A DNA stretch of 64,000 bases. It comes from Paraphaeosphaeria minitans. Its lineage: Eukaryota > Ascomycota > Dothideomycetes > Pleosporales > Didymosphaeriaceae. The position numbers were made by a program, and so were the translations under genes. The DNA lies in assembly GCA_015832175.1 (NCBI GenBank), contig WJXW01000001.1:62001-126000 (forward strand), written 5' to 3'. Shown one piece after another: positions 1 through 21,366 of this stretch; the first letter of the stretch is position 1, and every line of letters begins with the position of its first letter. The notes beneath the pieces are model-generated. The model did not search any database and was not told the origin of the DNA. It was given only the letters and a program-made list of their open reading frames with translations.

Positions 1-1436
1 CCTTTTTCTATAGGAACATCTCCTGCGCGTCCTTTATAGGATTAACTTTAACTTAGCAACCTATATAGGCCTTAGGCGGGCTCTTATTACTATAGTCGCT
101 ACTACTACTACTATTACTATTACTACTATTATTAGTGCTACTGCCCTTACTACTCTTTATATTCTTACTCTCCTTATCTGCTTCTTTAGTAGCAATAATA
201 CGTAGGACATAGTATATAAATATTATAATATACCTAGTATAGCGCGCCTAGCTCTCTAGATTCTATAGTTAGGCTATTAGCTACTAGTAGATCTTATCAG
301 CCTACGCACTCTTTACCTATTATTAGGTCTTACGTAGTAGCGAGGATAGCCTTTAGACGCTCTACTCCACTAGCTACTCTATAGCCTACGTAGCTTTTTA
401 CAGCTTAGGCTTATTCTAGCGTAGTAGCTAGATCGCGTAGGTAAGGTATACACAGTTATAGTTTATAAAGTGCTCTAGCTACTCTATAAACTTCTACTAG
501 CCTATTTTATTTATCTTTATAACTTTTATATTTATTACCTACTCTTACTGCTTCCTCTCCTCCTACGTTTATATATACTCTGCTAGAATGTCTTCCACCT
601 CTTCTTTATATGCCCGAGCGTCTACTCCGCTGTCCGCTATATTAGGGACGTAAACTATAAAGTACCGCTACTATCCTAAAGTAGGGAAGAAAAACTATAT
701 TTTTATCTTCTAGTAGAGCGCATTTAATCCTGTCTTAAACGCTAACCTATAACTATTATAGTGTAGTTATATCTGGCCCTTATTTCGCGTAAGATAGTTA
801 TATACTGGCTACTTATATTAGAAACTATCTAATAGCACTTCTAGAACCTAGATTAGTAGTCTACTAGTGTCTAGTAGCGTAACACTATTTACCCCTTATC
901 TTCTTAAAAGAGCGTAGCTTTTAATAAATTTCCTCTATTTATTAACTAGTATACTATACTTTTAATAGAGATATATATTAAGATTTTCTATACTAGCTTT
1001 GTGCTTACTACAGTAAAGCACGCTATACTTCTTAATAAAATAAATATACTTTTATATATCAGCTTACGCTAAGTTTTCTCCTGCTAGTTACTATTACTGC
1101 TAAAAGTTCTATTAATGTGGTAATATTAGTACTCTATTAGCTAGGCTTAACGCGGAAGCTTAAGCGTCCTAGTAGAACTCTATTATAAATTAGTAGTAAA
1201 AAGTAATAGCTAAACCCTGCGCTACTACTATCCTATTTTATAAATAAGAGATGGTAGATTAGTATAAGAGGTTACGTTAAGATGAATTAGAATAAGAAAG
1301 AAATAGAAATAGCTAGGGAATAGAATTGTTTCTGCCCCTAGTCTAACGCGTTTCTGGTATTAAATCCTACCTAATTTGTTAACTCTACCCCTAACGCTAA
1401 GCCAATCTTAGCGCGTCTGTGACCACCGACGCCTCT
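1..1436. repeat. Unassigned RIP-degraded repeat at left edge
   Basis: AT-rich, TpA-rich and CpA-poor sequence with no intact reading frame. On the minus strand, roughly 850 to 400, a stop-riddled frame still reads like a protein (fragments such as FKTGLNALY and YVPNIADSGVDARAYKEE), so this is probably the relic of a coding transposon. I could not assign a family: none of the Gypsy motifs seen elsewhere in the window (YIDD, zinc knuckle, chromodomain) is present. A CTA/TAC-rich microsatellite-like stretch lies at about 103-140. The region ends where recognisable Gypsy integrase sequence starts, near 1437. Confidence 0.5.
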
Positions 1437-1566
1437 TCCTCTTGGATAGGAAGACATTACTATAGATTTTGTTACAGGAATTCTAAACTCTAAAGATTTA
1501 ATAATAGGAATTAAATATAATAGTATATTAGTAATAGTCTGCTAACTAACTAAGTATGTTAAGCTT

Positions 1567-1977
1567 TGTTACGTACTAAATAACAACGTGGGACTTAGGC
1601 GCTTATAAAGGTGTAATAAAGTGACAATAGGGTTATAAACGTAATAAAGAGACGCTAAGTAACTTAGATTAGGTTACGTAATGTGCTTAGTTGCTTAGCA
1701 GCACTAAGTAGTAGAGTAGGTTACGTAAAGTGCTTAATTACTTAGTGGCACTAAGTAGCGGAGTAGCCTTAGTATATAGCAACGTAAGGATGGGCTCTCT
1801 ATACTTATATTTAATCTGTTTATTAATCTATTATTTAGATTCTAGTAGACTAAATTATTAACTTGTTACACTTTGTAAGATACTATTATATTAATAAGAC
1901 CTTCTACCTTCTATAAGTACTCCTGCCTAAGAACTAACTTTAACCCTTTAGAACTAGCTACCTTCTTAGATTTAACA
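1567..1977 (+). repeat. 5' LTR, family C (411 bp)
   Basis: Starts TGTTACGTACTA and ends TTTAACA. The 5' half is specific to family C; the 3' half, from about AGTATATAG onward, is shared with families A and B. Confidence 0.92.
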
Positions 1978-1979
1978 TC

Positions 1980-3850
1980 TTAAACACCTTTAATATAAGT
2001 ACTTTATAAATTCCTACCTTTTCTACAGCTTTAGGTGCCGCTAAGATTACTCTTATAAAGGATGGCAGTAAGGCGCATAAACCTAATCTTTACTTTAGCG
2101 AATAATCTTAAACTAACGTCTAGATTCTCTAGTTAAACCTCTACTTCTTTAACTTAGATAAACCCCTTAAAGATAAAAAGAAGGTTATCTTCGCAGTAAT
2201 ATATATGTAAAGAGATATAGGATTATAGATCTATCCCTATCTTAAAAAGTACCTAGGAATAGACTATAATAATAATAACAACAATTACGCAAATAAGTAC
2301 GCTAATGTAGTTAATATTATTAAAGATTATAATAACTTTAAGAAATGCCTTAAACAACTCTTTAGGATTACTAATAAGGACTCTATTGTAAAAGTAAAGA
2401 TTTAGACTATAACTTAGAAATAATTAGTAGCTAAGTATATAGCTAAGTTTTGTAAATACGCTATGTAACTTAACTAGGATAATAAATCTCTTTAAGACAT
2501 ATATAAATAAGGACTTAAATAGAAACTATATAAAGAACTCCTGCGTAGTGGTGCACAAATTGCTAATTTTAAAGAACTATATAAAGAAACTATTAGGATT
2601 AATAGAGAGTGGTTTTTATTATAATAGGAGCTCTACTAAAACCCTAGGGCGATAAGCTTTAGACAACTAGTAAAAGTGGTTTATAAGAACCCTATTAGAA
2701 TTGTCTAAAAGTAATAGCTAAGGAACTACTAGAGATACGAACTAATAGAAGATGTCTAGTTTAACTACTTAGGCAAAGGAAAAGGAGGAAGGATAGGCCC
2801 TAAGCAGCCTAATAAACGCGTCTCTAATAGAAGTTAATAACTAATAACTAAGACCTATAAATGCTTTATATGTGGTAAACTAGGCTATATAGCCAGGAAC
2901 TATAGATTAAAGAACAAAGTCTATTAAACTAAGTTAAATATACTAACTATTAAGGACTAAGAACCTAATAAGGAATAGGAAGTTATTATAACGCTATTTA
3001 GTTACTAACGCGTTACACTAGAGTAAAGTAAGTAATTAGATTTACTTAACTTATAACTATACAAAGATTTAGAAGATAACTCTAATATATACTACAACGT
3101 AGAAGATATAGAAGAGATACTAAGATCTCTTACTTCTTACCTATAAAGTAGGCAGGAAGAAGATAACCCTATGTCACCTAAGTATAAACTAAATGTTTAG
3201 GACTACATAGAACCCTACTAGGCACTAAAAGAAATGCAACCCTATAAAAATAAGAAGTTAGACTACGTACTAAAGTACTACCTAAACTACTGAAATTCTA
3301 TATACTAATTCTATATATAGACGTATTACAAAGAACTAATATGCACATAATATAAGGTAGAGAAAGAGGAGAATAAAAAATAACCTAAAAGGAAACTGCG
3401 CTGTAGATAGATATAGACAGACTACCCTATCGCAGCTTATAATAAACACCTCTAGAATAAATAATAAGTAAAATACTTTCCTTACCTCACGCTAAAGGGC
3501 AACAAATGCTATAATATACTTATTAATAGAGACTATATATAACTGTACTAGTACACGTGTCTAAACTAAGACTACAAATACTACTATATAGCTAAATATT
3601 TAGACAGCTTTGTAAACTGCCCTATATAAGAAGTAATAATAGAACTACTAATTTAACTAGTACATAGGAACAGTGAAGACTACAGGAGGAAAAATAGAAG
3701 AACATCTTTATAGGAAGAAGAAGAAGATAATCTACATAAGCTACGTACTTAAGAATAATAATAGAAGCGGATGCTTAGTAACGTATACTAGGTACTAGAA
3801 CTTAACTATAACCTATATAAATAAATGTCTTTTTTAGGCCTAAACTTAGA
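1980..3850 (+). pseudogene. gag remnant of family C element
   Basis: Degenerate capsid-like frame starting just after the LTR. The only diagnostic motif is a CX2CX4HX4C zinc knuckle at 2862-2903, readable as CFICGKLG..A with the histidine and terminal cysteine codons changed to Tyr, as expected of RIP on CpA (either strand). A highly charged linker follows. Many TAG/TAA codons interrupt the frame. Confidence 0.8.
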
Positions 3851-6800
3851 TAAGAAAACGCCTTTATTAAATTAAATGCTATAGTAAGTATAGTATTAGT
3901 TAAGCTACTAGTATAGCTTAAAGGAATATAGGCTTAAGCTCTTATAGACTTAGGAGTAGGAAGGAACTTTATATTTTATTAGATAATAAGATAAGTAGGA
4001 CTTATAATGTTAGAGAAAGAAGTACCCTATATTATTTATATTATAAATAGATCCCTAATGCCTAAGATACCTTAAATATACTAGGAGGTTACTACTATAA
4101 TAACAGTCTAAGGATATAGAGAGGAACCTACCTTAGATGTCTTACTAGGATTTAAGTATGAGTTAGTCTTAGGATTACCTTTGTTAATAATACATAACTT
4201 ACAAATTAACCAGGGTACAAAGAAAATATCGTTTAAACGCTGTAATTATATATTATAAGTAAAGCCTACGTATTAACTAAAGATAATAGTAGATAAGGGA
4301 GTTATTAACAATATAATACTGCGATAGATAGTTAAAAAACGGAAATACACTTTAGTAGACGCTGGTAGGAACTACTAGGTTAAGAAGTATAAGAAGGAGG
4401 ACAATAGCACACCTTTTACCTTACTAAGAGAGTATAGGAAATAGACATATATGTTTACAGAAAAAGAAGGAAAAGTAAACCTACCTAAATATTAACCCTA
4501 GGATCTTACGATAGACCTAGAAGAAGGGAAGACGCCACCCTTTAGACTACTATATAGTAAGATAGGAGAAGAACTCTTTAAAGAACGTGATTTTATTAAG
4601 ATAAACCTTAAGAAAGGATATATATAACTATTAAAGTTACTAGTAGTAAGCCCTTTTATATTTATTAAGAAAAAGGATGGATTAGATAGACTATGTGTTA
4701 ACTACTAATAACTTAATAATATAACAATAAAGAACTAATATCTACTACTAAATATTATATAGTTACGAGATCGACTATCTTAAGCTAAGATATTTATAAT
4801 AATAGATCTAAGAGACGGTTACCACCTTATACGAATTAAGAAAGGTGAAGAATAGAAAATAGTGTTTTAATTACGCTATAGACTATTTAAGTATAAGGTT
4901 ATGCTATTTAGACTTACAAATGCACCAGCAGCTTTTATAGTACTTATTAATAATGTACTCTGTAGATATCTAGATATATTTGTTATCGCGTATATAGACG
5001 ATATCCTTGTCTTTTCTAAAAACGAATTAGACCATACTAAGTATGTATAGATAGTACTAGAAGCACTAGACAAAGCATGCCTTTGTATTAAACTTAAGAA
5101 ATACAAGTTTAACGTTAAATAACTTAAATTCCTAGGACATATTATTACTACAGAAAGAATTAAGATAGCACTAAGTAAAGTTAAATATATTAAGAACTAG
5201 CTAATACTAAAGACAGCCAAGAATATCTAAGAATTCTTAGGATTCTATAGATTTAACTAATAATTTATCTAAGATTACGTAAAGGTCACAATACCTTTAA
5301 TAAATCTTATAAAGAAGGACGTACCCTTTAAATAGATAGATAAGTGTAGAATATTATTCCAACTTCTTAAGATAGTATATATTATAGAACCTATCCTTAT
5401 TTATTTTAGAAGCGATAAACTACTACGCTTTAAAATAGACGCTAGCGATCTTACGCTAGGCGCCTACGCTAAATAAGAATGTAATAGTAAATAGCACCTA
5501 ATTGCCTATTACTTATGTAAATTTAATAACGCTAAAACATAATACGATGTATATAATAAAGAACTCTACGCTATTATTAAAGCCTTAAAGCACTAGAGGA
5601 TCTACGCGCTTAGTTACTTAACGCTAGAAATCTATACAGATTATAAGAACCTTCTAAGGTTCACGATAATAAAAGAACTTACGCTATAATAACAAAAATA
5701 GTTATAAACTATAGGGCAGTATAAGTTTAAAATTATCTATATAGCTGGGAAAGAAAATGGCAGAGTAGACGCTTTTAGCTAACAAAGTAATCTAGTAGAA
5801 GAAAAGGTAAAAACCTTCTCCGCAATCCTTCGCAAAGCTAAAAATAGATCTCTAGAGCTAATAGTAGAACTAAATTAACTTTTAGTAATTAACTAAGAAG
5901 TTCTAGAATATCTATAGACTAAGATTATCTAACAATACCACGATAACCCTATGTACGGACACCTAGGCATCACAAAAATAATAGAACTTATCTAGAGGAA
6001 TTACACCTTTAAAGGAATTAAGGAAGCTATAACAACTTATATCTATAAATGTACAGAATGCTAGAGAAATAAACATAGTATATATTTTAAATATAGAGAG
6101 ATGCAAGCAATTAGAATACTAATAGCACTATAGAAAGACATTGCTATAGATTTTATTATAGGAATTCTAAACTCTAAGGATCTAATAATAGGAATTAAAT
6201 ACAACAGTATACTAGTAATAGTCTACTAACTAACTAAGTATATTAAGCTCATTCCATGTCTTAAAAGAATAATAGCAAAGGAACTCGCTTTTCTTATTCT
6301 AAACTAACTAGTTAGATACCACAGAATTCTAAAAATAATTATTAGCGATAGAGACAAGCTCTTTACATTAAATTATTAGATAACACTTATAGCACTACTT
6401 AGAACAAAACAAAAGCTATTAACAGCTTACTATCTATAAATAGATAGACAGACAGAACGTATAAACCAAACTATAGAAACGTACCTACGCATCTACTGTA
6501 ACAGTTAGAAGAATAACTAGGTTTTATTACTACCTATAGCACAGTTAGCCTATAATAACAAAGTATTAGTAGTATTAGGATATATACTGTTCTATGTAAA
6601 CTATAAAAGACACCTATATCTCTTTAATTAACAATTTCCTATAATAATTAAAGCAAAAGAAGCCATAGATATAGTAGAAAACATAAAGAAAATATACTAA
6701 TAACTCTGAGAGAATCTTAAGAAAGCTTAGCAGCAATTAATTTCATACTAAAACTAAAAACAAAAAATGGCACCTTAGCTAAAGAAGGGGGATAAAGTAT

Positions 6801-7160
6801 ATTTACTTATAAAGAACTTTTAAACTTAGAAGAAAAAACACAAGAAACTAGATTATATTAAAGTTAGACTATTTTACATTTCCAAGTAAATATTACTAGT
6901 GAACTATAAGTTGGAACTACCGCCAGATATAAAGATACACCTAGTATTCCACGTATTACTACTAGAACCAGCAGACCCTAATACACTAGTTAAAACCACC
7001 TTCTACCACTAGACTAAGAAAGAAAACAAATTTAAGGTTAAAAGAATTCTAGAATATAATTAGCATAATAACGCGTACTTTATTAAGTGGAAAAGTTACC
7101 CACATAGCAAAAACACTTAGGAACTAAAGAACTACCTAGGAAACTATTAATAAAAGATTA
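3850..7160 (+). pseudogene. pol remnant (PR-RT-RNaseH-IN-chromodomain), family C
   Basis: Degenerate polyprotein frame. Visible in order: a protease-like ALIDLG stretch near 3930; reverse transcriptase with GYHLIRI (about 4817-4840), LTNAPAAF (about 4912-4935) and YIDDILVFS (4991-5017); RNase H around 5450-5780; integrase zinc-binding region with MYGHLGI near 5950 and C..C near 6055; and a chromodomain with FKVKRILEYN near 7030. In-frame TAG/TAA codons make it non-functional. The antisense strand of the RT region happens to stay open but has no independent coding character. Confidence 0.88.
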
Positions 7161-7289
7161 AAGAATTCTATTAATAGACTTACCTAAGACGGTAATACTA
7201 AGGAATTATCCTAGAACTCTAAAGGCAGGTTGTCTATTATAGACTATATAGACGTGCTAAGTTTAGCCAGACTAGTAGGCTAAGTAGAA

Positions 7290-7640
7290 TAGGCTAGGTC
7301 CTCCTCTAACTCTAACTCTATTAGCGTAGCACTCTCTACTACAATAACCTTACTAGCACGCTTTTTATTCTGCGCTAATTATTTTAATAACTAATCCTCT
7401 TTTACGCGTACTATACGTAGGGCTTTAAATACTACGTCCTATTCTTTTTGCACCTCTAATATTTACGCCTCTAATTTTTTCTTCTTAGTAATTAACTATA
7501 AGAACTTGTTTCTAGTAACGCCTACATTATACTTTAAGTCTTATTTCTAACACTTACTACACTTCCCTAAGCTAATATAGACTTTATAAATGCAGGAATG
7601 CGACTTATAGAAGGAGCACTTTAACACTATAATTACTCTG
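7290..7640 (-). pseudogene. Antisense CxxC plus coiled-coil ORF relic in the 3' region of family C
   Basis: Between chromodomain and 3' LTR, the strand opposite to gag-pol carries a protein-like frame: a cysteine-rich start (GKCSKC, CxxC), then a Lys/Glu/Leu-rich heptad-like stretch (NKFL..LITKKKKLEA) predicting a coiled coil, then a basic tail. Stops in it are of the RIP type. Equivalent frames with the same CxxC-then-coil layout occur at the same place in families A and B. The function is unknown to me; position and layout suggest an accessory protein transcribed toward pol. Confidence 0.5.
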
Positions 7641-7739
7641 TAGTTTTTAATAGTAGAGATAAGGCTGTAATAACGCTTTATAAAATTATAGTTAGTAGGC
7701 ATAATTCTTTAGGACGAAGAATAGGAAGGGAGGAGATAA

Positions 7740-8150
7740 TATTACATACTAGATAATAACGTGGGACTTAGGCGCTTATAAAGGTGTAATAAAGTAATAA
7801 TAGGGTTATAAATATAATAAAGAGACGCTAAGTAACTTAGATTAGATTACGTAATATGCTTAGTTACTTAGTAGCACTAAGTAGTAGAGTAGGTTACGTA
7901 AAGTGCTTAGTTACTTAGTGGCACTAAGCAGCGGAGCAGCCTTAGTATATAGGAACGCAAGAATAGGCTCTCTATACTTATGTTTAATCTGTTTATTAAT
8001 CTATTGTTTAGATTCTAGTAGACTAAATTATTAACTTGTTACACTTTGTAAGATACTATTATATTAACAAGACCTTCTACCTTTTGTAAGTACTCCTGCC
8101 TAAGAACCAACCTTAACCCTTTAGGACTAGCTACCCTCTTGGATTTAATA
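7740..8150 (+). repeat. 3' LTR, family C (411 bp)
   Basis: Same length and layout as the LTR at 1567-1977; starts TATTACATACTAG (first G mutated to A) and ends TTTAATA. Followed by the duplicated target AGCTT. Confidence 0.92.
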
Positions 8151-9219
8151 AGCTTATTCTATATTTTAAAAGAATAATAGTAAAGGAACTCGCTTTTCTT
8201 ATTCTAGACTAACTAATTAGATACCACGGAATCCTAAAAATAATTATTAGTAATAGAGATAAGCTCTTTACGTTAAATTATTAGACAACGCTTATAGCAC
8301 TGCTTAGAATAAAATAAAAGCTATTAACGGCTTACTATCTATAAACAGACAGATATATAGAATGTACGAACTAAACTATAGAAACGTACCTACGCATCTA
8401 CTGCAATAGTTAAAAGAATAACTAGGTTTTATTACTACCTATAGCATAGTTAGCCTATAATAATAAAGTATTAGTAGTATTAGGACATACACTATTCTAT
8501 GTAAACTATAGAAGACACCTATATCTCTTTAATTAATAATTTCCTACGATAATTAAAGCAAAAGAAGCTATAGATATAGCAGAAAATATAAAGAAAATAC
8601 ACTAATAACTTTAAGAAAATCTTAAGAAAGCTTAGCAGTAATTAATTTTATATTAAAATAGAAAATAAAAAATAAAAAATAGCACCTTAGCTAAAGAAGG
8701 GGGATAAAGTATATCTGCTTACAAAGAACCTTTAGACTTAGAAGAAAAAACACAAGAAACTAGATTATATTAAGGCTAAACTATTTTACATTTCTAAGTA
8801 AATATCACTAGTAAACTATAAGTTAGAACTACCGCCAGATGTAAAGATACACCTAGTATTTCATGTATTACTACTGGAACTAGCAGACCCTAATATACTA
8901 GTTAAAACCACCTTCTACTACTAGACTAAAGAAGAAAATAAATTTAAGGTTAAAAGAATTCTAGAATACAATTAGTATAATAATATATACCTTATTAAAT
9001 AGAAAAGATACCTACACAGCGAAAATACTTAGGAACTAGGGAACTACTTAGGAAACTATCAATAAAAGATTAAAGAATTTTATTAATAGACTTACCTAAG
9101 ATAGTAATGCTAAAGAATTATCCTAGAACTTAGGAGGTAGGTTGTCTATTACTAACTATATAGACGTGCTAAGTTTAGCTAGACTAGTAGGCTAAGTAGA
9201 ATAAGCTAGATCCTCGTCT

Positions 9220-9560
9220 AACTCTAGCTCTACTAGAGCAGCACTTTCTACTGTAATAACCTTACTAGCACGCTTCTTATTCTGCGCTAACTATTTTACT
9301 AATTAATCCTCTTTCGCGCGCGCTACACGTAAGGCCTTAAATACTATATTTTATTCTTTTTACGCCTCTAATATTTACGCCTCTAACTTCTTCTTCTTAG
9401 TAATTAACTATAAAAACTTGTTTCTAGTAATAGCTATATTACACTTTAAGTCTTATTTTTAATACTTACTACACTTCCCTAAGCTAACGTAGACTTTGTA
9501 AATATAAAAGTGTAACTTATAGAAGGAGCACTTTAACACTATAACTACTCTATAGTTTTT
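9220..9560 (-). pseudogene. Antisense CxxC plus coiled-coil ORF relic, host family C copy
   Basis: Second family C copy of the antisense frame described at 7290-7640, in the same position between chromodomain and LTR. It differs from the first copy mainly by C/T and G/A transitions. Confidence 0.45.
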
Positions 9561-9651
9561 AATAGTGAAAATAAGGTTGTAACAACGCTTTATAGAATTA
9601 CGGTTAGTAGGCTTAATTCTTTAGGACGAAGAATAGAAAGGGAGGGGATAA

Positions 9652-10061
9652 TATTACGTACTAGATAATAATATAGGACTTAGGCGCTTATAAGGGTGTA
9701 ATAGAACAGTAATAGGGTTATAAATGTAATAAAGAGACGCTTAGTAACTTAGATTAAGTTACGTAATATGCTTAGTCGCTTAGTGGCACTAAGTAGTAGA
9801 TTAGGTTACGTAATGTACTTAGTTACTTAGTAACACTAAGTATTAGAGTAGCCCTATTATATAGGAACATAAGGATGGACCTCTATACTTGTGTTTAATC
9901 TATTTATTAATTTATTATTTGGATTCTAGTAGACTAAATTGTTAACTTATTATACTTTGCAAGATACTATTATATTAATAAGACCTTCCACCTTCTGTAA
10001 ATACTTCTGCCTAAGGACTAACCTTAACCCTTTAGGACTAGCTACCCTCTTGGATTTAACA
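9652..10061 (+). repeat. 3' LTR of host family C element
   Basis: Starts TATTACGTACTAG and ends GATTTAACA. It is 410 bp, one base shorter than the other family C LTRs. It abuts a family B LTR fragment after CTTAC. Confidence 0.88.
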
Positions 10062-10099
10062 CTTACGCCCTACTACTTATACGTAGCTAGATCCTAACA
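10062..10099 (-). repeat. Truncated 3' LTR, family B (38 bp)
   Basis: Matches the last 38 bp of complete minus-oriented family B LTRs (compare 35783-35820), ending GATCCTAACA. The missing part lies beyond the family C insertion. Confidence 0.75.
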
Positions 10100-10269
10100 T
10101 TATTCTTCCCCTCTAAGCTTAATGTCCTTATAAGTTAACTACTTATAAAGTTATTATCTTGTTCTATTTAATATCGCCACAGTTAAGCTAATTATCTTAA
10201 GAAAGACTATATTTTTATAATAGTTACCTATTTATACTACGCTAAGAAGAAATATACTTATTATTTTTC

Positions 10270-10680
10270 TTCTTTACACTCTTAGTGTACTAACTGCGTT
10301 AGGTAGGGAAACTAAAAGTGCGAGCCTAAGGAGATCCCTTTACTAGATTATTTAAAAATAGATGCTAAAATAGAGAGGTTAGAGAAGTTAGAGGCTAAAG
10401 AGGAGGTAAAGCTTTATATTAAAGAAGAGCTAGCTAAAGTAGCTCTCCTTCGCGCTTATTAGGCGTAAGAGAAGATAGCGCGTTTACGTAATTAGTAAAA
10501 AAAATTATATTAAAAGGAATAAAAATTATTTAATTATAGCATAAGTACTATAGATAGGTTAAAAGCGCTTAAGGCGCAGAAAGAGTTAGCGTAGGCTACT
10601 ACGTTAATAAATTCTAACACGCTATTAGGCGCTAAGGTAATTAACTAGTCTATTTTATAGGCTAGCCCTTATACTAGTAG
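10270..10680 (+). pseudogene. CxxC plus coiled-coil ORF relic, antisense to family B pol
   Basis: Plus-strand frame within a minus-strand element. It begins with a cysteine cluster of CTNC-x7-C form near 10285-10320 and continues into a strongly charged stretch (KIDAKIERLEKLEAKEE near 10365-10410) with coiled-coil character. A few TAG/TAA stops replace probable Gln codons. Same architecture as the frames at 7290-7640 (family C) and 23040-23510 (family A). Confidence 0.5.
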
Positions 10681-13600
10681 TAATTCCTAGGTGCGTCCTA
10701 GTTGTCTCTTTATAATTTCTAGCGTTTAATTATAGAAGTCGTTTATCTGTTGTTAATAGTTAAATAGGTTTTTTTTAGGTTCCTATATATTTTTACTAGA
10801 TAAATACCCTTTCCACTTAATAATGTATTCTTTAGTGTCTGTGTACGCATTACGTCCTTATAGGATTTATTCTACTTTAAACTTAGTTTCTTCCTAAGCT
10901 TAGTAACAAAAGGTGGTTTTAACTAGTGTTTTAGGGTCTGCTAGTTCCAGTAGTAATATATAGAATACTAGGTGTATCTTTACATCTAGCGGTAGTTCCA
11001 ACTTATAGTACTAGTGATATTTACTTAGAAATATAAAATAGTCTAACCTTAATATAATCTAGTTTCTTGTGTTTCTTCTTCTAAGTTTAAAGGTTCTTTG
11101 TAAGTAGATATACTTTATTCCCCTTTTTTAGCTAAGGTGCTATTTTTCGTTTTCTATTTTAATATGAAATTAATTGCTGCTAAGCTTTCTTAAGATTCTC
11201 TTAGAGTTATTAGTGTATTTTCTTTATATTTTTTGCTATATCTATGGCTTCTTTTACTTTAATTGTCGTAGGAAATTGTTAATTAAAGAGATGTAGGTGT
11301 CTTCTATAGTTTATATAGAATAGTGTATATCCTAATACTACTAATACTTTGTTATTATAGGCTAACTGTGCTATAGGTAGTAATAAAACCTAGTTATTCT
11401 TCTAACTATTATAGTAGATGCGTAGGTATGTTTCCATAGTTTAGTTTATACGTTCTGTCTATCTGTCTATTTATAGATAGTAAGCTATTAATAGCTTTTA
11501 TTTCGTTCTAAGTAGTGCTATAAGCGTTATCTAATAATTTAACGTAAAGAGCTTGTCTCTATTGCTAATAATTATTTTTAGGATTTTATAGTATCTAATT
11601 AGTTAGTCTAGGATAAGAAAAGCGAGTTCCTTTCCTATTATTTTTTTAAGACATAGAATAAGCTTAATATACTTAGTTAGTTAGTAGACTATTACTAGTA
11701 TACTATTATATTTAATTCCTGTTGTTAGATTCTTAGAGTTTAGAATTCCTATAATAAAATCTATAGCAATATCTTCCTATAGTGCTGTTAGTATTCTAAT
11801 TGCTTACATCTCTCTATATTTAAGATGTGTACTGTGTTTATTTCTCTAGTATTCTATATATTTATAGATATAAGTTATTACAGCTTCCTTAATTCCTTTA
11901 AAGGTGTAATTTCTTTAGATAAGTTCTATTATTTTTGTAATGCCTAGGTGTCTATACATAGGGTTATTATAGTATTGTTAGATAATCTCGATCTGTAGAT
12001 GTTCTAAAACTTCTTAGTTAATTACTAAAAGTTAATTTAGTTCTACTATTAGTTCTAGAGATCTATCTTTGGCTTTGCGAAGGATTATAGAGAAGGTTTT
12101 TACTTTTTCTCTTACTAGATTACTTTGTTAGCTAAGAGCGTCTGCTCTGCCATTTTCTTTTCTAGCTATATAGATGATTTTAAACTTATACTACCCTGTA
12201 GTTTATAACCATCTTTATTGTTATAGCGTAAATCCTCTAGTGCTTTAAGGCTTTAACAATAGCGTAGAGTTTTTTATTATATATATTATATTATGTTTCA
12301 GCGTTATTAAATTTGCATAAGTAATAGGTAATTAGGTGCTATTTACTATTACGTTCTTATTTAGCGTAGGCGTCTAGCGCAAGATCGCTAGCGTCTATTT
12401 TAAAGCGTAGTGGTTTATCACTTCTAAAATAAATAAGAATAGGTTCTATAATACATGCTGTCTTAAGGAGTTAGAATAACATTCTACACTTATCTATCTA
12501 TTTAAAGGGTACGTCCTTCTTTGTAAGATTTATTAAAGGTATTGTAACCTTTACATAATTTTAGATGAATTGTTAGTTAAATCTATAAAATCCTAAGAAT
12601 TCTTAGATATTCTTGGCTATTTTTAGTATTAGCTAGTTCCTAATACATTTAACTTTACTTAGTGCCATCTTAATTCCTTCTATAGTTATAATGTGTCCTA
12701 GGAATTTAAGTTATTTAACGTTAAACTTATATTTCTTAAGTTTAATACAAAGGTATACTTTATCTAGTACTTCTAGTACTGTCTATACATGCTTAGTATA
12801 GTCCGATTTGTTTTTAGAAAAGACAAGAATATTGTTTATATACGCGATAATAAATATATCCAGATGTTTATAGAGTACGTTACTAATAAGTGCTATAAAA
12901 GCTACTAGTACGTTTATAAGTCTAAAAGGTATAACCTTATATTTAAATAGTCTATAGCGTAATTAAAACGCTATTTTCTATTCTTCACGTTTCTTAATTT
13001 GTATAAGGTGGTAGCCGTCTCTTAGATCTATTATTATAAATATCTTAGCTTAAAATAGTTAATCTTGTAACTCTATAATATTTAGTAGTGAATATTAGTT
13101 CTTTATTATTATATTATTAAGTTATTAGTAGTTAACGCATATTCTATCTAATCTATCCTTTTTCTTAATAAATATAAAAGGGCTTACTGCTAGTAACTTT
13201 AATAGTTATATATATCCTTTCTTAAAGTACTTCTTAATAAAATTACGTTCCTTAAGGAGTTCTTCTCCTATCTTACTATATAGTAGTCTAAAGGGTAGCG
13301 TCTTCCCTTCTTCTAGGTCTATTATAAAATCCTAGGGTTAATATTTAGGTAGGTTTGCTTTTCCTTCCTTTTCTATAAATATATATGTCTATTTCCTGTA
13401 CTCTCTTAGTAAGGTAAGGAGTGTGCTATTATTCTCCTTTTTACACTTCTTAACCTAGTGGTTCCTACTAGCGTCTGCTAAAGTGTACTTCTGTTTTTTA
13501 ACTATCTATTATAGTATTATGTTATTAATAACTTCCTTATCTACTATTATTTTTAGTTAATGCGTAGGCTTTGCTTATAATATATAATTGCAGCATTTAA

Positions 13601-15855
13601 ATAATATTTTCTTTATACCCTAGTTAATCTGCGGGTTGTGTATTATTAACTAAGGTAATCCTAAGACTAACTTATGCTTAGATCCTAGTAAGATATCTAA
13701 GGTGAGTTCCTCTCTATGTCCTTAGACTATTATTATAGTAGTAACCTCCTAGTATATCTAAGGTGTCTTAGGCATTAGGGATCTATTCGCAATATAGATA
13801 ATATAGAGTACTTTTTTCTCTAATATTATAAGTCCTACTTATCTTACTATCTAATAAGATATAAAGTTCTTTCCTACTTCTAAGTCTATAAGAGCTTAAG
13901 CCTATATTCCTTTAAGCTATACTAGTAGCTTAACTAATACTATGCTTACTATAGCATTTAATTTAATAAAGGCGTTTTCTTATCTAAGTTTAGGCCTAAA
14001 AAAGACATCTGTTTATATAGGTTATAATTAAGTTCTAGTGCCTAATATACATTTCTAAGCATCCGCTTCTATTATTATTCTTAAGTATATAGCTTATGTA
14101 GATTATTTTCTTCTTCTTCCTGTAAGGATGTTCTTCTATTTTTTCTCCTACAGTCTTTACTATTCCTATATACTAGTTAAATTAGTAGTTCTATTATTAC
14201 TTTTTATATAGGGCAGTTTACAAAGCTATCTAAGTGTTTAGCTATATAGTAGTATTTGTAGTCTTAGTTTAGACATATATACTAGTATAGTTGTATATAG
14301 TCTCTATTAATAAGCATATTATAGTATTTATTACCCTTTAGCGTAAAGTAAGGAAAGTATTTTACTTATTATTTATCCTAGAGGTGTTTGTTATAAGCTG
14401 TAATAGAGTAGTCTATCTATATCTATCTATAGCGCAGTTTCCTTCTAGGTTATTTCTTATTCTCCTCTTTCTCTACTTTATATTGTGTGTATATTAGTTC
14501 TTCGTAATACGTCTATATATAGAATTAGTATATAGAATTTCAGTAGTTTAGGTAGTACTTTAGTACGTAGTCTAACTTCTTATTTTTATAGGGTTGCATT
14601 TCTTTTGGTGCCTAGTAGGGTTCTATGTAGTCCTAAACATTTAGTTTATACTTAGGTGACATAGGGTTATCTTCTTCCTGCCTACTTTATAGGTAAGAAG
14701 TAAGAGATCTTAGTATCTCTTCTATATCTTCTACGTTGTAGTATATATTAGAGTTATCTTCTAAATCTTTGTATAGTTATAAGTTAAGTAAATCTAATTA
14801 CTTACTTTACTCTAGTGTAACGCGTTAGTAACTAAATAGCGTTATAATAACTTCCTATTCCTTATTAGGTTCTTAGTCCTTAATAGTTAGTATATTTAAC
14901 TTAGTTTAATAGACTTTGTTCTTTAATCTATAGTTCCTGGCTATATAGCCTAGTTTACCACATATAAAGCATTTATAGGTCTTAGTTATTAGTTATTAAC
15001 TTCTATTAGAGACGCGTTTATTAGGCTGCTTAGGGCCTATTCTTCCTCCTTTTTCTTTGCCTATATAGTTAAACTAAATATCTTCTATTAGTTCATATCT
15101 CTAGTAGTTCCTTAGCTATTACTTTTAGACAATTCTAATAGGGTTCTTATAAACTACTTTTACTAGTTATCTAAAGCTTATTACCCTAGGGTTTTAGTAG
15201 AGCTCTTATTACAATAAAAACCACTTTTTATTAATCCTAATAGTTTCTTTGTATAGTTCTTTAAGGTTAGTAATTTGTGCACTACTACGTAAGAGTTTCT
15301 TATATAGTTTCTATTTAAGTTCTTATTTATATATATCCTAAAAAGATTTATTATCCTAGTTAAGTTGCACAGCGTATCTGCGAAACTTAGCTATATACTT
15401 AGCTACTAATTATTTCTAAATTATAGTCTAAATCTTTGCTTTTGTAATAGAGTCCTTGTTAGTAATTCTAAAGAGTTATTTAAAGCATTTCTTAAAGTTA
15501 TTATAATTTTTAATAATATTAACTATATTAGTGTACTTGTTTGCGTAATTGTTATTATTATTATTATAGTCTATTTCTAGGTACTTTTTAAGGTAGAGAT
15601 AAATCTATAATCCTACATCTCTTTATATATATATCGCTGTAAAGATAACCTTTTTTTTATCTTTAAGGGGTTTATCTAAGTTAAAAAAGTAGAGGTCTAA
15701 CTAAAGAATCTAGATATTAGTTTAAAATTAATTTCTAAAGTAGAGATTAGGTTTATACGCCTTACTACTATTCTTTATAGAAGTAATTTTAGTAGTACCT
15801 AAAGCTGTAGAAGAGGTAGGAGTTTGTGAAGTACTTATATTAAGAGTGTTTAAGA

Positions 15856-16311
15856 TATTAAATTTAAAAGGGTAGCTAGTCCTAAAGGGTTAAAGTTAGT
15901 TCTTAGGCAGGAGTACTTATAAAAAGTGGAAGGTCTTATTAATATAATAGTATTTTATAAAGTATAATAAGTTAATAATTTAGTCTACTAGAATCTAAAT
16001 AATAGATTAACAAATAGATTAAATATAAGTATAAGAAGCTTATTCTCGCGTTCCTATATACTAAGTAGTCCTACACTTCCTAGAATCCTATATATCCTAG
16101 AGTCCTATATGTCCCAGAGTCCTATACGTCTTATAGTCCTGTACGGGTGAGTCCTACGCGTCCTAGAGTTTCTGTATAGGCGAGGCCTGTGCGGTCCTTA
16201 GAATCCTTAGGACCTGTGACCTATTATCTAACTGCCTAGTTAGCTAACTCTAGTGGACTAGTAGTCTAATAAGCTCGCGCCCCGCTGCTCGCGCGCGGCC
16301 GGATTCTAATA
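15856..16311 (-). repeat. 5' LTR, family B (456 bp)
   Basis: Reads TATTAAATTT...TTCTAATA on the plus strand, a complete minus-oriented family B LTR. It contains the family B array of near-repeats of CCTAGAGTCCTATA and the GC-rich GCTCGCGCGCGGCC end. Confidence 0.9.
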
Positions 16312-17612
16312 GGGCCCTTACCCTAAGGCCGCCTTAGGGCCGCCTCTACACTACTACCTTACTATAGCACAATACTTCTAAGATCTCTAAAGCTTACTTT
16401 ATAACTATAAGACGTTTTAAACTAAGTAAGGTCTAGGGTATATAATAGGCTAGGGCATAGCCCTAGCCTTTAGAAAGATCTTAAGGAAAAGAACTACTCT
16501 AAAGAAGTAGACCTACTAAAGAAAACTCTTTTTATAAGCAGCACACCCCCTTATAGAGACTTAATACCTAGAACTTATCCTTTACACTTAGCACTTATAG
16601 TTCTGTTCACTCTCTAAGGCTAGCCCATAATAATAAGTAATAATAGAAAGTTAAAGAAATATAGAGCTAATTAGCTATTATTTATATAACTAATTAGGGA
16701 ATACACATAAAAGACACCTATAGAAAAAGAGACCTAATATACTCTTAGAGTGGTTAGATTAATATAATAGATTTTAAATAGAATAACTTAACTTATTTTT
16801 TAATACTTTTTACTTAAGGCACACTATAAACACAATACTATAAAACTATAAGAATCTAGGTTACAAAGACTTCTACTATAGAAAGTAATTAAGGTACTAG
16901 TAGTAGTAAATACTTAAGCTATAGAATAAGACATAGAGAAAAGACGTTTTAAATAGTAGCTAGAAACTATAAGCTCTTAGCGTTCTTAAAAGCGCGTTTA
17001 AATAGATATAAATTAACGCTTTATAGAGATTAAGACTATTAGGAAGGCTATATATACTACTAAGGCTCTAGTAGCTTAGTAGTATAGACCTACTATATTA
17101 AGTACTATAAAGAGGGTTATAATAGTTACTATAGCTATAGCGCTTAAATCTATATATACTTAGTAGTAATTTTAGTAACTATTAGTAGAGATATCGCGTG
17201 TTCTGTACAGGAGTCGCGTTTTGCTAAGGTGGCCGGAAACCCTAGGTGGCCGGCATCTATATACGCTAGCTTACCCCTACTCCTAATACTACTTTAGGTT
17301 AGAGCATGCCACCTCTTAGCGCGTCCATGTTTAGGTGGACTGCCACCACCCAGACTAAGGGAAACTATCTAGGGCGCAGCCGATAACATATACTTTGTCC
17401 AAAAGTACATAATCTAACAATTAAACAAGCCCCGTGAAGAAGTAGAAACGCAGCCATAAAGAATATGGCTCATATTTATTCAACAACACGCCCGTATTAT
17501 CTAGTACAGTTTTATTAACAGAGGATTACAGAAGCTTCTTGCTCCTACCCCTTGCCTCTGGGGACTTTAAAGTACAAATGCTTTATTCCTATGAAAGCAG
17601 ATCAACTGCCAC
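16312..17612. other. AT-rich relic passing into normal-GC sequence; no gene seen
   Basis: 16312-17210 is RIP-like AT-rich sequence with no recognisable RT, LTR or transposase motif; it may be a degraded DNA transposon. Composition shifts to normal at about 17210, where a 10-bp motif AGGTGGCCGG occurs twice (17227-17236, 17245-17254). 17260-17612 is the 3' flank of the minus-strand UstYa-like gene and holds no open frame that I would call. Confidence 0.5.
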
Positions 17613-18369
17613 CTACGCATTTGTCCACAGTGTCGGCCTCCCATGATTTTGATCCCAACCAACATTGTATCCGCCAGGCTTCCCGCAATACGGAAACTTG
17701 GTATAGGACAGCTGTATAGCGTCTGCCCGCCACCTAGGATTTTGGATCACCTTAAGCGTCTGCTCCCCGCAGTGCAACGTATGATGCGTTGGCATGATCT
17801 GCCCGTCAATCATCCGTCCACTCGTTTGCGCGCGGTGCAACTTCCGCAGAAGAAACTGACAATGGGTTACGTGGTATTGCTGGCGCACAAAGACTGGTAA
17901 GGTTCAGTGACGTCTGGGAGGGGAAATACTTGGAGTGCCTACAGCCTGGCCCGTTGCCGAGACGGACTTCCTCGATGGGCACAATGTCCGTGTAGTTTGT
18001 GTCGCGGTAGATGTTCAAGTCGTTCTCAGCGAGATAATTGAGAAACTCCACCTCGGTCTCGGTATCCTGGCACTCTTTAGGTAGCCATGTGAAGCCAGTA
18101 ATCTCAAACACACAACCACGCGCACGCGCTTCCGCAGCTGTAGTGCCGCATTGGTCGTACTTCAGTTCCCTCCTGGGTGTTACAACCGTGAAGTAAATGA
18201 GCGGGATTAGGACTATGATGGCTAAGAGTATGATGACGGCTGGGCACAAAAATCGAGATCTTGAGTGGAGCTTTACCAAAGATGTGTCGTCGGAGTCAAT
18301 ATCGGAAAGGTCTTTGAATTTCTCCTCGTCGCACAGCGTTGTGCGTGCTGAGTGATCGGGGGAGTCCAT
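17613..18369 (-). CDS. UstYa-family (DUF3328) membrane protein 1, probable RiPP-modifying oxidase
   Basis: Two exons, 18369-17943 and 17893-17613, separated by a 49-nt intron (GTAGGC...ACTGAAC...CCAG); 708 nt, 235 residues. The N-terminus is polar and cytosolic-looking. A single transmembrane segment lies at about residues 41-63, followed by a lumenal domain with both HxxHC signatures of the family: HVTHC at 150-154 and HHTLHC at 179-184. The first motif appears only after splicing across the intron. Characterised relatives (UstYa/UstYb of ustiloxin biosynthesis, homologues in phomopsin and asperipin clusters) catalyse oxidative cyclisation of ribosomal peptides, and the HxxHC residues are required. 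It is co-oriented with the second UstYa-type gene 605 bp upstream and divergent from the repeat precursor. The start is the first Met of the frame and gives the expected short cytosolic tail. DUF3328 proteins also occur in other cluster types, so the RiPP role rests on context. Confidence 0.85.
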
Positions 18370-18974
18370 GTTGCTCTCAGCCGGGGAATAGGAGAGCAGA
18401 GAGTGACGTTGGACTCAATGGTGTCAATCTGGGTGCGGCAGGCTATCGAGAGCGCAATGGGTCAACGACGCACTCCGGCCAGGAGCATGAGAAGTCGAAT
18501 CCTTCTCGGAGTCTTTAAGATCCCGAAGGCGATGACCTACCGCTGATTGGGAGTGTCAAGAAGGTTCCACTTGAAATGGTGCGGGATCTTCGATCAGCGT
18601 TGCTTTCGAGTACCCCGCTGCATCCATGCAACTAGTAATGACATTTCTGATAAGTAACCGGTTTGATATGCTCTCGTATCCGTGCGCACAATGGTCCGGA
18701 CTAAAACAAGGATTCATGTTGGGCTGTAGGATTCACTTGCCCGAAGCAGCGTGCAGATCGTGTCCGTATTAGGAAGGTACAGTCAGATTATTGACCTACA
18801 TGTGGCCCGGTGCGGGGCTACTGTACTGTAAGGATTCAATCTCGAAACGCGATCAACGCCCTGGTCGGAGAATGGTGCCGCACGGAACTACACAGTATTC
18901 CAGCATCACGATAGCTCAGTGCACGATGATCCAGCGGATGTTTCAGCACAAAGAGCGAATATCTTCGATTCATT
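18370..18974. other. Intergenic region between the two UstYa-type genes
   Basis: 605 bp between the start of the distal minus-strand gene and the stop of the proximal one; it must hold the promoter of the former and the terminator of the latter. Normal GC, no RIP signature. Short plus-strand frames here lack coding character and are not called. Confidence 0.6.
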
Positions 18975-19934
18975 CTATATATCGTAAACTACCTGATCAC
19001 CCAATGGATCATGGACTTGAGTGTGTTCATCAACCTTGCCGGCACGATGCTCCTTTGCCCAGTCTCGGATGGCTTCAAAGTCACGACATGTGTGTGTGAC
19101 AGCGGTTGTCGGCATGAGCTGGTTATACTTGCGCCACCACACATATGGAAGCGGGGTCACGTCAGCCGAGCACATGAGACTCTGGCGAATTGAGTCGACA
19201 CAGTGATCAAGGTGCTTCATAGCCAGACCTTCAACTTCATCTGGAGAACCTTGTTCGGTTTCGTTCCAGAATAGTCGCCTGCGAAGGTGTTGCTGAATCG
19301 TATGTTAGCAGTAAAATATTTACATGGAACGCGGTGTAACTCACTAGGCAGTGAAGTTGATGGAAAACTTCAAGGATCACGACATAGTGACCTTCGTCTC
19401 CGGGGATGGGTGAAGTTCGGTTGGCAAGCTGGGCCGCGTCGCTCATTGGGATCCTACTGACTCCATCTAGTGATAGTAGCATTAGTCGCTGTGGTTTTTG
19501 GGCATGATTCTTTACTTACATTTGTGAAGTTCTTCCCATTCATGATCGAGTTCTTCGGAAGGTTTGCCTTGGTATGGGCTGGTATCGCTATCAATGCCAG
19601 CTTGAAAAATGACGTTTTTGTATTGAATGGCTGATTCCGCTGGTGCTGTCGTCCAATGTTAGCTCCAGGTTGAAGGACAGAATGGTAGAGGTGACCCACA
19701 GAAGATGGAATCAGGGAAAGGCGTTGATCTAGTTGCCATCCACGCATACCAGTTGGTGATTGTCAGAACTGCTACGAGCACCCATGGTAGCCAGCGATAA
19801 CATATCGCCCAAGGCGATGGAATCGGTGAACTTAAATAATTACGTTCTTCCGATGAGGGTTGACTTGATTTTCCATCGCTTTCTTCCTGCTCAACCCTTC
19901 GGTAGCCTCGTGCAAATGAAAATTCCATCTTCAA
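18975..19934 (-). CDS. UstYa-family (DUF3328) membrane protein 2, probable RiPP-modifying oxidase
   Basis: Four exons: 19934-19700, 19645-19520, 19466-19345 and 19292-18975; introns of 54, 53 and 52 nt with GTGGGT, GTAAGT and GTGAGT donors and CTAAC/CTAAT branch sites. 801 nt, 266 residues. A transmembrane helix at about residues 43-66 follows a polar N-terminus. The lumenal domain shows the family in order: SPAESAIQY (79-87), the SPYQGKPSEELDHEW stretch (101-115), YGVSRIP (121-127), LEVFHQLHC with the first HxxHC at 156-160, and HLDHC, the second HxxHC, at 188-192, followed by RQSLMCSADVTP. All are placed as in UstYa. Splicing restores each conserved block in frame, which strongly supports the model. 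It starts 717 bp from the divergent precursor gene. Expected role: copper-dependent-type oxidative cross-linking of the Tyr-containing core in the secretory pathway, inferred from family and context. Confidence 0.93.
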
Positions 19935-20035
19935 CTCTACGAAAAGGTTGGAAGAGAGGGACGGTTAAGAAAGTAAAGCACTTGAAGTGAGTGCAAGAAC
20001 AATGCCGTTCGGGTTGACAGTCGGACTTGGGTGTC

Positions 20036-20084
20036 CTGCGGGAGGGGCCAGTTGAGTGCCTTGCGAGAGGGGCTAGTTGCGCGC
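20036..20084. repeat. Imperfect 25-bp direct repeat in the divergent promoter
   Basis: Two adjacent copies of a motif of the form TGCGGGAGGGGCCAGTTG, at 20037 and 20062 (the second reads TGCGAGAGGGGCTAGTTG). A tandem GC-rich motif in a shared promoter could be a binding site for a cluster-specific zinc-cluster regulator; that is inference only. Confidence 0.4.
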
Positions 20085-20551
20085 CGTCAAAACAAGCTCC
20101 CGGGCCAAGCTGTGATCGGCAACCAGGCAACCCGTCCAAGTCTTGATTATGCTGCCGCGTGTCACTTGCATGCATGCACAGGGTATATATCGTCTTACAC
20201 GGTGCGCTACGGCACCATTATTCCGGGTACTCTGAACGATAGATAGCTTGGGTGACCACATGACCACTAATCTGTCCAATGAGCATTAAGGCGCAGCGAA
20301 CGATCAACGTTGCACTCCACCAAGTAGAATCCTTGCGAACATTCACTCAGTTATGTGTCCTTGTTACCTTCCTCTATAGTGTTCTTAGCGTGCTCCTACG
20401 CCTATCGCATGGAATTCGGTTTGGTGTCGCTTTTGACGCTTTGGTAGATGGTCGTACTCGGCAACTGATCAGAGCAATCGAATTTGTTCCTGTCGTCAGA
20501 CATGCAGCCGTGCGACTCCCCACAGTTCTGCTGTCAAACGTGGAGCTGCTG

Positions 20552-20559
20552 TATAAGTA
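20552..20559 (+). promoter_or_regulatory. TATA-like box of the RiPP precursor gene
   Basis: TATAAGTA, 93 bp upstream of the start codon, a plausible distance for a short 5' UTR. The start context is CACCATGA, close to the fungal consensus. Confidence 0.5.
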
Positions 20560-20651
20560 GCGTGGTTCCTACCGTCCTGTATAGCTAGGCCGGTGTCTTT
20601 GTATCAAGTCAATCTCTCACCCTCGTCGCACAAAATCGTCACATTACCACC

Positions 20652-21252
20652 ATGAAGTACTCCAGCAGCATTATTTCCGCCCTTTTCGCGGCTTCCGTGC
20701 TCGCTGCCCCGGTTCCAACACCTGACACTGTAAGCTTCCTCTAGACATTGATCTTGCTCTGCCTGTCATAAAGCATCGCTCACCATTCAGGAGAGCTCCG
20801 CGTCTGTCGACCAAGCATTTTACAACGCTGCGTACTATGGATTGAAGGATAGAGAGGCTGAGTCAGAGAAGGCTAAGCGTGAGGAGGACAGCTCGGCGTC
20901 TGTTGACCAAGCATTTTACAATGCTGCCTACTATGGATTGAAGGAGAGAGAGGCTGAGTCAGAGAAGGCTAAGCGTGAGGAGGACAGCTCGGCATCTGTC
21001 GACCAAGCCTTCTACAATGCTGCCTACTATGGATTGAAGGATAGAGAGGCTGAGTCAGAGAAGGCTAAGCGTGAGGAGGACAGCTCGGCATCTGTCGACC
21101 AAGCCTTCTACAATGCTGCCTACTATGGATTGAAGGATAGAGAGGCTGGGTCAGAGAAGGCTAAGCGTGAGGAGGAGACCTCCGCTTCTGTTGACCAGGC
21201 CTTTTACAATGCTGCCTACTATGGACTCAAGGAGAGAGATGCCAAGGCATAG
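20652..21252 (+). CDS. Secreted Kex2-processed repeat precursor, probable fungal RiPP (dikaritin-type) precursor
   Basis: Two exons, 20652-20729 and 20791-21252, with a 61-nt intron (GTAAGC...TTCAG) just after the signal region; 540 nt, 179 residues. A signal peptide (residues 1 to about 19) ends at VLA-AP. From residue 28 the protein is five head-to-tail repeats of 32 residues (28-59, 60-91, 92-123, 124-155, and a 24-residue last copy 156-179). Copies 1-4 each end in a Lys-Arg Kex2 site (55-56, 87-88, 119-120, 151-152) followed by an acidic EED/EEE. The invariant part is SASVDQAFYNAAYYGLK; variation is confined to the D/E, E/G and S/T flanks, and codons inside the core differ only silently between copies. 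Signal peptide, KR-separated repeats and invariant Tyr-containing cores are the hallmarks of UstA/PhomA-type precursors, and two UstYa-type genes lie next door. The mature peptide, and whether it is toxic, are unknown. The other reading is an unmodified Kex2-processed secreted repeat peptide. Confidence 0.9.
20794..21249 (+). repeat. Five tandem 96-bp coding repeats (last copy partial)
   Basis: Copies start at 20794, 20890, 20986, 21082 and 21178, with period 96 bp (32 codons). Copies 3 and 4 are almost identical; copies 1 and 5 are the most divergent. The repeats carry no RIP mutations although the neighbourhood is saturated with them, as expected for an array whose unit is far below the length RIP recognises. 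Confidence 0.95.
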
Positions 21253-21366
21253 CAGACTACGGATTAGGACAATAGTTATAATAGTAACTTAACGTTTATT
21301 CACGTTACTTGTTCTACAATTAACAAAACAACTCTCTAAATAAAGGACTTTAACTTCTTAGAACAA
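21253..21366. other. 3' flank of precursor gene up to the retrotransposon insertion
   Basis: 114 bp of AT-leaning sequence (several TAATAGTTATAATAG-like words) that must contain the precursor terminator. The target-site duplication CTTAT (21367-21371) follows, so the insertion lies only about 115 bp beyond the stop codon. Confidence 0.6.

Follow-up and report, generated by a model that had tools for sequence, protein, structure and literature searches.

A probable compact dikaritin-type RiPP locus with a divergent UstY-like gene in Paraphaeosphaeria minitans

Introduction

Do a small repeat-containing gene and two adjoining candidate oxidase genes in Paraphaeosphaeria minitans, a mycoparasite of sclerotia (PMC12859388), form a locus for a ribosomally synthesized and post-translationally modified peptide (RiPP)? 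To answer this question, we analyzed a stretch of 64,000 nucleotides (hereafter the window; C1:62001-126000) from the genome of this fungus, which comprises 47.45 Mb on 30 contigs. The locus is located 79.6-83.3 kb from the chromosome end (contig C1 starts with telomere repeats) and contains a putative precursor gene on the forward strand as well as two genes on the reverse strand, encoding a UstYa/DUF3328 protein and a divergent UstY-like protein. DUF3328 (UstYa) is described as the class-defining enzyme of the dikaritins or ust-RiPS (PMC12048977). The original definition of this class (Ding et al., cited in PMC12048977) included a tyrosinase and a methyltransferase in the cluster, both of which were dropped by later definitions, and small ust-RiPS gene sets are reported to occur (PMC12048977). 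A preliminary description of the window had proposed that the three genes follow the minimal logic of ustiloxin, phomopsin and asperipin biosynthesis. Our analysis upholds this proposal, as a KR-separated repeat precursor with tyrosine-rich units adjoins UstY-type genes, and we consider it probable that these genes constitute a compact dikaritin-type (ust-RiPS) RiPP locus, i.e., a member of a known fungal class. Less ordinary are the divergent UstY-like family, which is missed by the Pfam model, and a long constant block within the repeats.

Results

The precursor gene is split into two exons and encodes a product of 179 residues. In our splice model, exon 1 (20652-20729, forward strand) provides the start codon and the segment MKYSSSIISALFAASVLAAPVPTPDT, which we judged by eye to resemble a signal peptide and which would direct the precursor to secretion. 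Exon 1 is followed by a GT..AG intron of 61 nt (20730-20790) and by exon 2 (20791-21252; stop codon at 21250-21252), which encodes five units of 32 residues, the last one being shortened. The units are spaced by 96 nt and joined by kexin-type KR pairs at all four junctions, the first of which is located at 20875-20880 and the other three at 96-nt steps. The repeats had initially been described as identical; while the KR junctions stand, the units are near-identical only. Residues 5-21 of the unit (SASVDQAFYNAAYYGLK) are the same in five of five units, whereas the spacers differ. As counted from the codon alignment, this constant 17-residue block occupies 20797-20847 in unit 1 and 20893-20943, 20989-21039, 21085-21135 and 21181-21231 in units 2-5, and it offers F, Y and YY as potential targets of modification.

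The five units also differ in how their codons vary. Within the constant block, nine of 17 codon columns are variable, and all nine changes are silent (0 replacement), a pattern to be read with the caveat that repeat copies can be homogenised. Spacer columns 1-4 and 22-27 contain nine variable columns, eight with replacement and one silent, which gives a Fisher p of 4e-4 for block versus spacer, an optimistic value because the block limits were set after seeing the same data. Columns 28-32 were excluded from the spacer count because the fifth unit ends there. In unit 1, residues 1-4 are still part of the post-signal region; without them columns 1 and 2 are invariant and the spacer count becomes 6/7 (hand count). 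A DUF4090 match on the precursor (E 4.6e-4, under its cut-off) was dismissed as a low-complexity chance match.

The neighboring gene at 18975-19928 (reverse strand) consists of four exons, separated by introns at 19699-19646, 19519-19467 and 19344-19293, and encodes a protein of 264 residues that is identical to the public protein PMIN06_012999. With a PF11807 match of E 8.1e-55 (186.5 bits versus a cut-off of 25), this gene is clearly a member of the UstYa/DUF3328 family. It is separated from the precursor by a divergent intergenic region of 723 bp (19929-20651), which possibly serves as a shared promoter through which both genes would be regulated. The second gene at 17613-18369 (reverse strand) has two exons and one intron (17942-17894), and its product of 235 residues differs by one residue from the representative of the PMIN06_012998 cluster. 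All four introns of the two enzyme genes are of the GT..AG type and 49-54 nt in length, and both proteins align over their full length with the public predictions. As previously noted for the two enzymes, each contains two HxxHC motifs and an N-terminal membrane anchor, the latter appearing in the AlphaFold models as a single membrane-type helix of 23-29 residues. In the UstYa model (mean pLDDT 80.5), the HxxHC motifs reside on helices 151-168 and 180-199, and 33 of the 34 sequences in the UstYa alignment have the complete double motif.

Both genes had been assigned to UstYa/DUF3328. They are indeed intact and oriented opposite to the precursor, but only the product of 18975-19928 passes the PF11807 cut-off. 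The product of 17613-18369 gave no PF11807 match at E ≤ 1, and a search of NCBIfam returned nothing useful. We therefore built family profiles from 26 chosen sequences out of 54 matches for the divergent protein (its own cluster included) and from 34 out of 69 for UstYa. Among the 26 divergent sequences, 18 match PF11807 at E ≤ 1 (best 8.3e-4), and the sole member whose score was seen (P0020) stays below the cut-off with 17.5 versus 25 bits. A single pairwise comparison of the two profiles by hhalign yielded a probability of 83% (E 8.7e-6) over 47 columns covering both HxxHC motifs. Of the 26 divergent sequences, 24 have all four histidines and both cysteines of the double motif, at an unvarying spacing of 30, while P0009 and P0053 are gapped there; by pattern, 36 of all 54 matches contain two motifs, one contains a single motif and 17 contain none. 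Moreover, three N-terminal cysteines (C74, C86 and C100) are invariant in 26/26 aligned sequences.

The model of the cluster representative (P0002; mean pLDDT 78.5) positions the HxxHC motifs on helices 147-167 and 178-193. When compared as an order of elements without superposition, both enzymes share the arrangement E-H-H-E-H(HxxHC)-H(HxxHC)-E-E-E, to which the UstYa model adds one strand and the last helix and the divergent model a first short helix and one strand. Foldseek returned no match in the PDB at E ≤ 0.001 for either model, and the fold is thus assigned from prediction and element order. Sequence searches with the UstYa protein also retrieved no relative of solved structure, the single match of its family profile (E 0.85) being judged a chance hit. 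From sequence and models, the divergent family looks like a remote relative of UstYa. The DUF3328 hidden Markov model match on which the preliminary description had staked its reading was hence found for 18975-19928, whereas for 17613-18369 the relation comes from profile comparison and predicted arrangement. A distant paralogue of the divergent gene (29%), also with two HxxHC motifs, is located at C13:472133-472574; no repeat precursor was found in the 20 kb scanned around it.

Throughout the genome, PF11807 gave 27 matches, which group by position into 20 genes. A scan within ~1.5 kb of the UstYa sites (~20 kb for four of them) brought the number of precursor loci to at least three. The second repeat precursor (~C1:271242-271690; L046) has a signal-like start and KR-separated units like TEFAPWYRATNILPASDD, with a UstYa match ~1.3 kb away (C1:269226-269893). 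The third (~C16:660880-661440; L047/L048) has units like ADPQWYDITYV-DKR and has a UstYa match on either side, at 659.4 and 662.5 kb of C16. The units of both are unrelated to the unit in the window. Repeat frames in L012/L025 and L052 were rejected as DNA minisatellites because they are open in several frames on both strands, and lower rows of the scan were set aside as telomere repeats (L033, L041, L022) or as other frames of L046. A kexin P-domain was matched once in the genome, at C5:219098-219358. In agreement with the earlier remark that no tyrosinase is visible, none of the 23 PF00264 matches of the genome lies on C1.

The closest relatives of both enzymes outside P. minitans are found in P. 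sporulosa (84-86%), and the divergent enzyme has relatives in eight named genera besides Paraphaeosphaeria. These findings contradict the suggestion that the enzymes are lineage-specific, just as the mycoparasitic life of the host does not fit the plant-associated setting proposed for them. Judged by equal contig sizes, both enzyme genes share one contig in P. sporulosa (5,402,283) and in Periconia digitata (3,027,279).

We also searched 5.8 billion proteins for relatives of the precursor. Among the 7995 candidates scored, only one reached E ≤ 1, a metagenome prediction of 138 residues (E 1.2e-7) with one readable unit, VDQAFVNVAYYGLKEREAEAE. Its units read ..SDVDQAFVNVAYYGLKEREAEAEQVKR and ..SDVDKAFSNAS.., and its later part seems, judged from the letters, to repeat this unit in a different frame. 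These candidates included no identical protein from P. minitans; the precursor thus seems to be unannotated there, and the public annotation, as far as these candidates show, represents the locus as two hypothetical proteins without a precursor. We found no published paper containing the strings AFYNAAYYG, FYNAAYY or NAAYYGL, and searches on P. minitans metabolites and genome and on Paraphaeosphaeria RiPP, UstYa or DUF3328 found no title or abstract reporting the locus (supplements were outside the search). The type G-8 of the Kex2-processed repeat proteins (KEPs), which includes Paraphaeosphaeria, is another peptide, as it is described as a di-histidine type (PMC7329392). Among the KEPs of that study, those with DUF3328 neighbors are common (1758/7878).

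The three genes reside in an island (17301-21300) with a G+C content of 50% and a composite index of repeat-induced point mutation (RIP) of -0.42. In the flanks (1-16000 and 22001-56000), this index ranges from 1.10 to 1.73 over 25 two-kb bins, so that within the window the island is enclosed by RIP-like DNA of ~17 kb on one side and ~35 kb on the other. The flanks had been described as RIP-degraded retrotransposons. Their RIP-like, AT-rich character is borne out, but a retroelement origin is weakly shown, with one sub-threshold match to a Tf2-1-type SH3 domain (E 8.7e-4) in one of five flank fragments tested out of the 25 longest listed. Just past the right-hand block, 35 kb from the island, lies an MFS_1 transporter-like frame (56796-58238, reverse strand), the nearest transporter-type frame found, together with a CBF/Mak21 frame and others. 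Closer to the chromosome end, three tandem units of ~4.99 kb each follow the telomere (C1:1680-16078), of which the first and third contain a frame of 1475 residues each, the second being split at the edge of the extracted segment. The first unit, which was the one tested, gave DEAD, Helicase_C and OrsD matches, and Rfam gave no match in these subtelomeric repeats. Judged on their G+C content (mostly 0.57-0.64), the units, though repeated, were perhaps spared by RIP.

Discussion

How might the three genes cooperate? The precursor would enter the secretory pathway, where kexin would cleave after the KR pairs and release five near-identical peptides of ~30 residues. CctR, a DUF3328 protein that hydroxylates cyclochlorotine, is reported to be membrane-anchored, dimeric and O2-dependent with a binuclear copper site for which the HxxHC residues are essential (PMC12435403). 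By analogy with CctR, we expect both membrane-anchored double-HxxHC proteins of the locus to oxidise the kexin-released peptides within the secretory lumen, presumably as copper- and O2-dependent oxidases acting jointly. They might cross-link or hydroxylate the constant block near FYNAAYYG, e.g., around QAFYNAAYYGLK, most likely via tyrosine. Trimming, if any, would be carried out by peptidases encoded elsewhere, before a cyclic product might be secreted.

For the divergent gene, we tentatively go one step further, while regarding this extension as rather doubtful. It could represent a second clade of copper oxidases with a double HxxHC motif, so far unrecognised and marked by an N-terminal three-cysteine module, acting as a specialised partner of the canonical UstYa, perhaps in a heterodimer that shares an active site at the interface and modifies an unusually long core of ~17 residues. 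RiPP mining based on PF11807 would miss such a clade.

The assignment to the dikaritins draws on two features of the class, a precursor with repeated units at kexin sites (its signal peptide judged by eye) and a DUF3328 gene with two HxxHC motifs beside it. The cluster tyrosinase of the original definition was not found on C1, and no further gene was modelled in the island, whose leftover open reading frames were not searched singly. Several observations weigh against a dikaritin-type locus, the optimistic Fisher value being one. The block of 17 and the unit of 32 residues exceed the units of 8-14 residues given for ustiloxin, phomopsin and asperipin (PMC7329392), and this length leaves the true core undelimited. 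Expression, joint action, cross-link and product are predictions. In the metagenomic relative, the first tyrosine of the readable unit is replaced by V, while the second unit shows AFSNAS and then falls out of frame, and thus not every tyrosine is essential. No relative of the precursor in a named species was among the candidates scored, a search that unannotated small genes would escape. In Byssothecium circinans, relatives of the two enzymes lie on different contigs. Furthermore, the divergent enzyme occurs in ten named species besides P. minitans, which we take to be Pleosporales, and only three of them are also among the UstYa matches listed (E ≤ 1e-30, 317 candidates). Karstenula rhodostoma, Kalmusia sp., Paraconiothyrium brasiliense, Bimuria novae-zelandiae, Neocucurbitaria cava, Periconia macrospinosa and Clathrospora elynae have no UstYa relative among those matches. 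Either the pairing of the enzymes is not general or the UstYa search missed partners; this lowers our confidence in a dikaritin-type locus and slightly raises that in two of the alternatives, unmodified peptides and a decayed cluster.

The precursor might be processed into unmodified linear peptides of a signalling, surface or effector type, with the UstY-type genes acting elsewhere. Such KEPs are the majority, as 78% of 7878 have no DUF3328 neighbor (PMC7329392), and both the length of the block for a cross-linked core and the mostly missing UstYa partners of the divergent enzyme's relatives are in line with this explanation. Yet units with tyrosine are more frequent beside DUF3328 genes (65.6% versus 38.2%; PMC7329392). 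Since the immediate neighbors of the precursor are two UstY-type genes, and the two other repeat precursors of the genome likewise adjoin UstYa genes, we regard linear peptides as unlikely. A precursor of an alpha-type mating pheromone would share the signal-like start, the KR junctions and the repeated units. However, the C-terminal motif PYG[L/M]P[I/V]G given for Pleosporales (PMC6339444) is absent from all five units, and the counts in PMC7329392 include DUF3328 neighbors for none of the yeast mating-factor KEPs and for three KEPs of other fungal pheromones, which makes a pheromone extremely improbable.

The locus could also be what is left of a larger cluster, silent or in decay after being cut by transposons and RIP, and without a product. 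Its enclosure by RIP-like DNA, the distance of 35 kb to the nearest transporter-type frame and the lack of a tyrosinase match on C1 would all be expected from such decay. Against it stand three open frames with clean introns, an island without RIP signature and the silent-only variation of the constant block, and we consider a remnant quite improbable. Taken together, the dikaritin-type locus is the explanation we favor. If it is true, P. minitans, a biocontrol fungus, produces no fewer than three distinct peptides modified by UstY-type enzymes, and the product of the locus could contribute to its antifungal action or its safety profile. The divergent family offers a concrete case in which to ask if DUF3328 copper enzymes reach further than the Pfam model covers, and if two distinct subunits work together.

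Among known systems, asperipin-2a from Aspergillus flavus has the unit FYYTGY, and its pathway includes a reductase and a transporter, for which the genes modelled in the island provide no counterpart. Its aprA/aprY set resembles our locus in the KR-joined repeat precursor, the tyrosine-rich units and the UstY-type oxidase, and it is cited as an example without tyrosinase or peptidase (PMC7329392, PMC12048977). It differs by its one UstY gene and 8-residue units, compared to two genes, one of them divergent, and 32 residues here (PMC7329392). Ustiloxin and phomopsin likewise combine a repeat precursor with two and five DUF3328 genes, respectively; in contrast to our locus, with no match on C1, they need a tyrosinase, and their cores YAIG, YVIG and YVIP are unlike FYNAAYYG (PMC7329392). 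CctR shares the single transmembrane helix and the HxxHC(x)nHxxHC arrangement on a helix pair, but its substrate is a non-ribosomal peptide and hence has no precursor gene (PMC12435403). Finally, by description, our locus can be likened to those of epichloecyclin (gigA) and victorin. Both are cyclic peptides of ribosomal origin from plant-associated fungi; GigA is a ustiloxin-type precursor (PMC7329392), and victorin is listed as a Dothideomycete dikaritin (PMC12048977).

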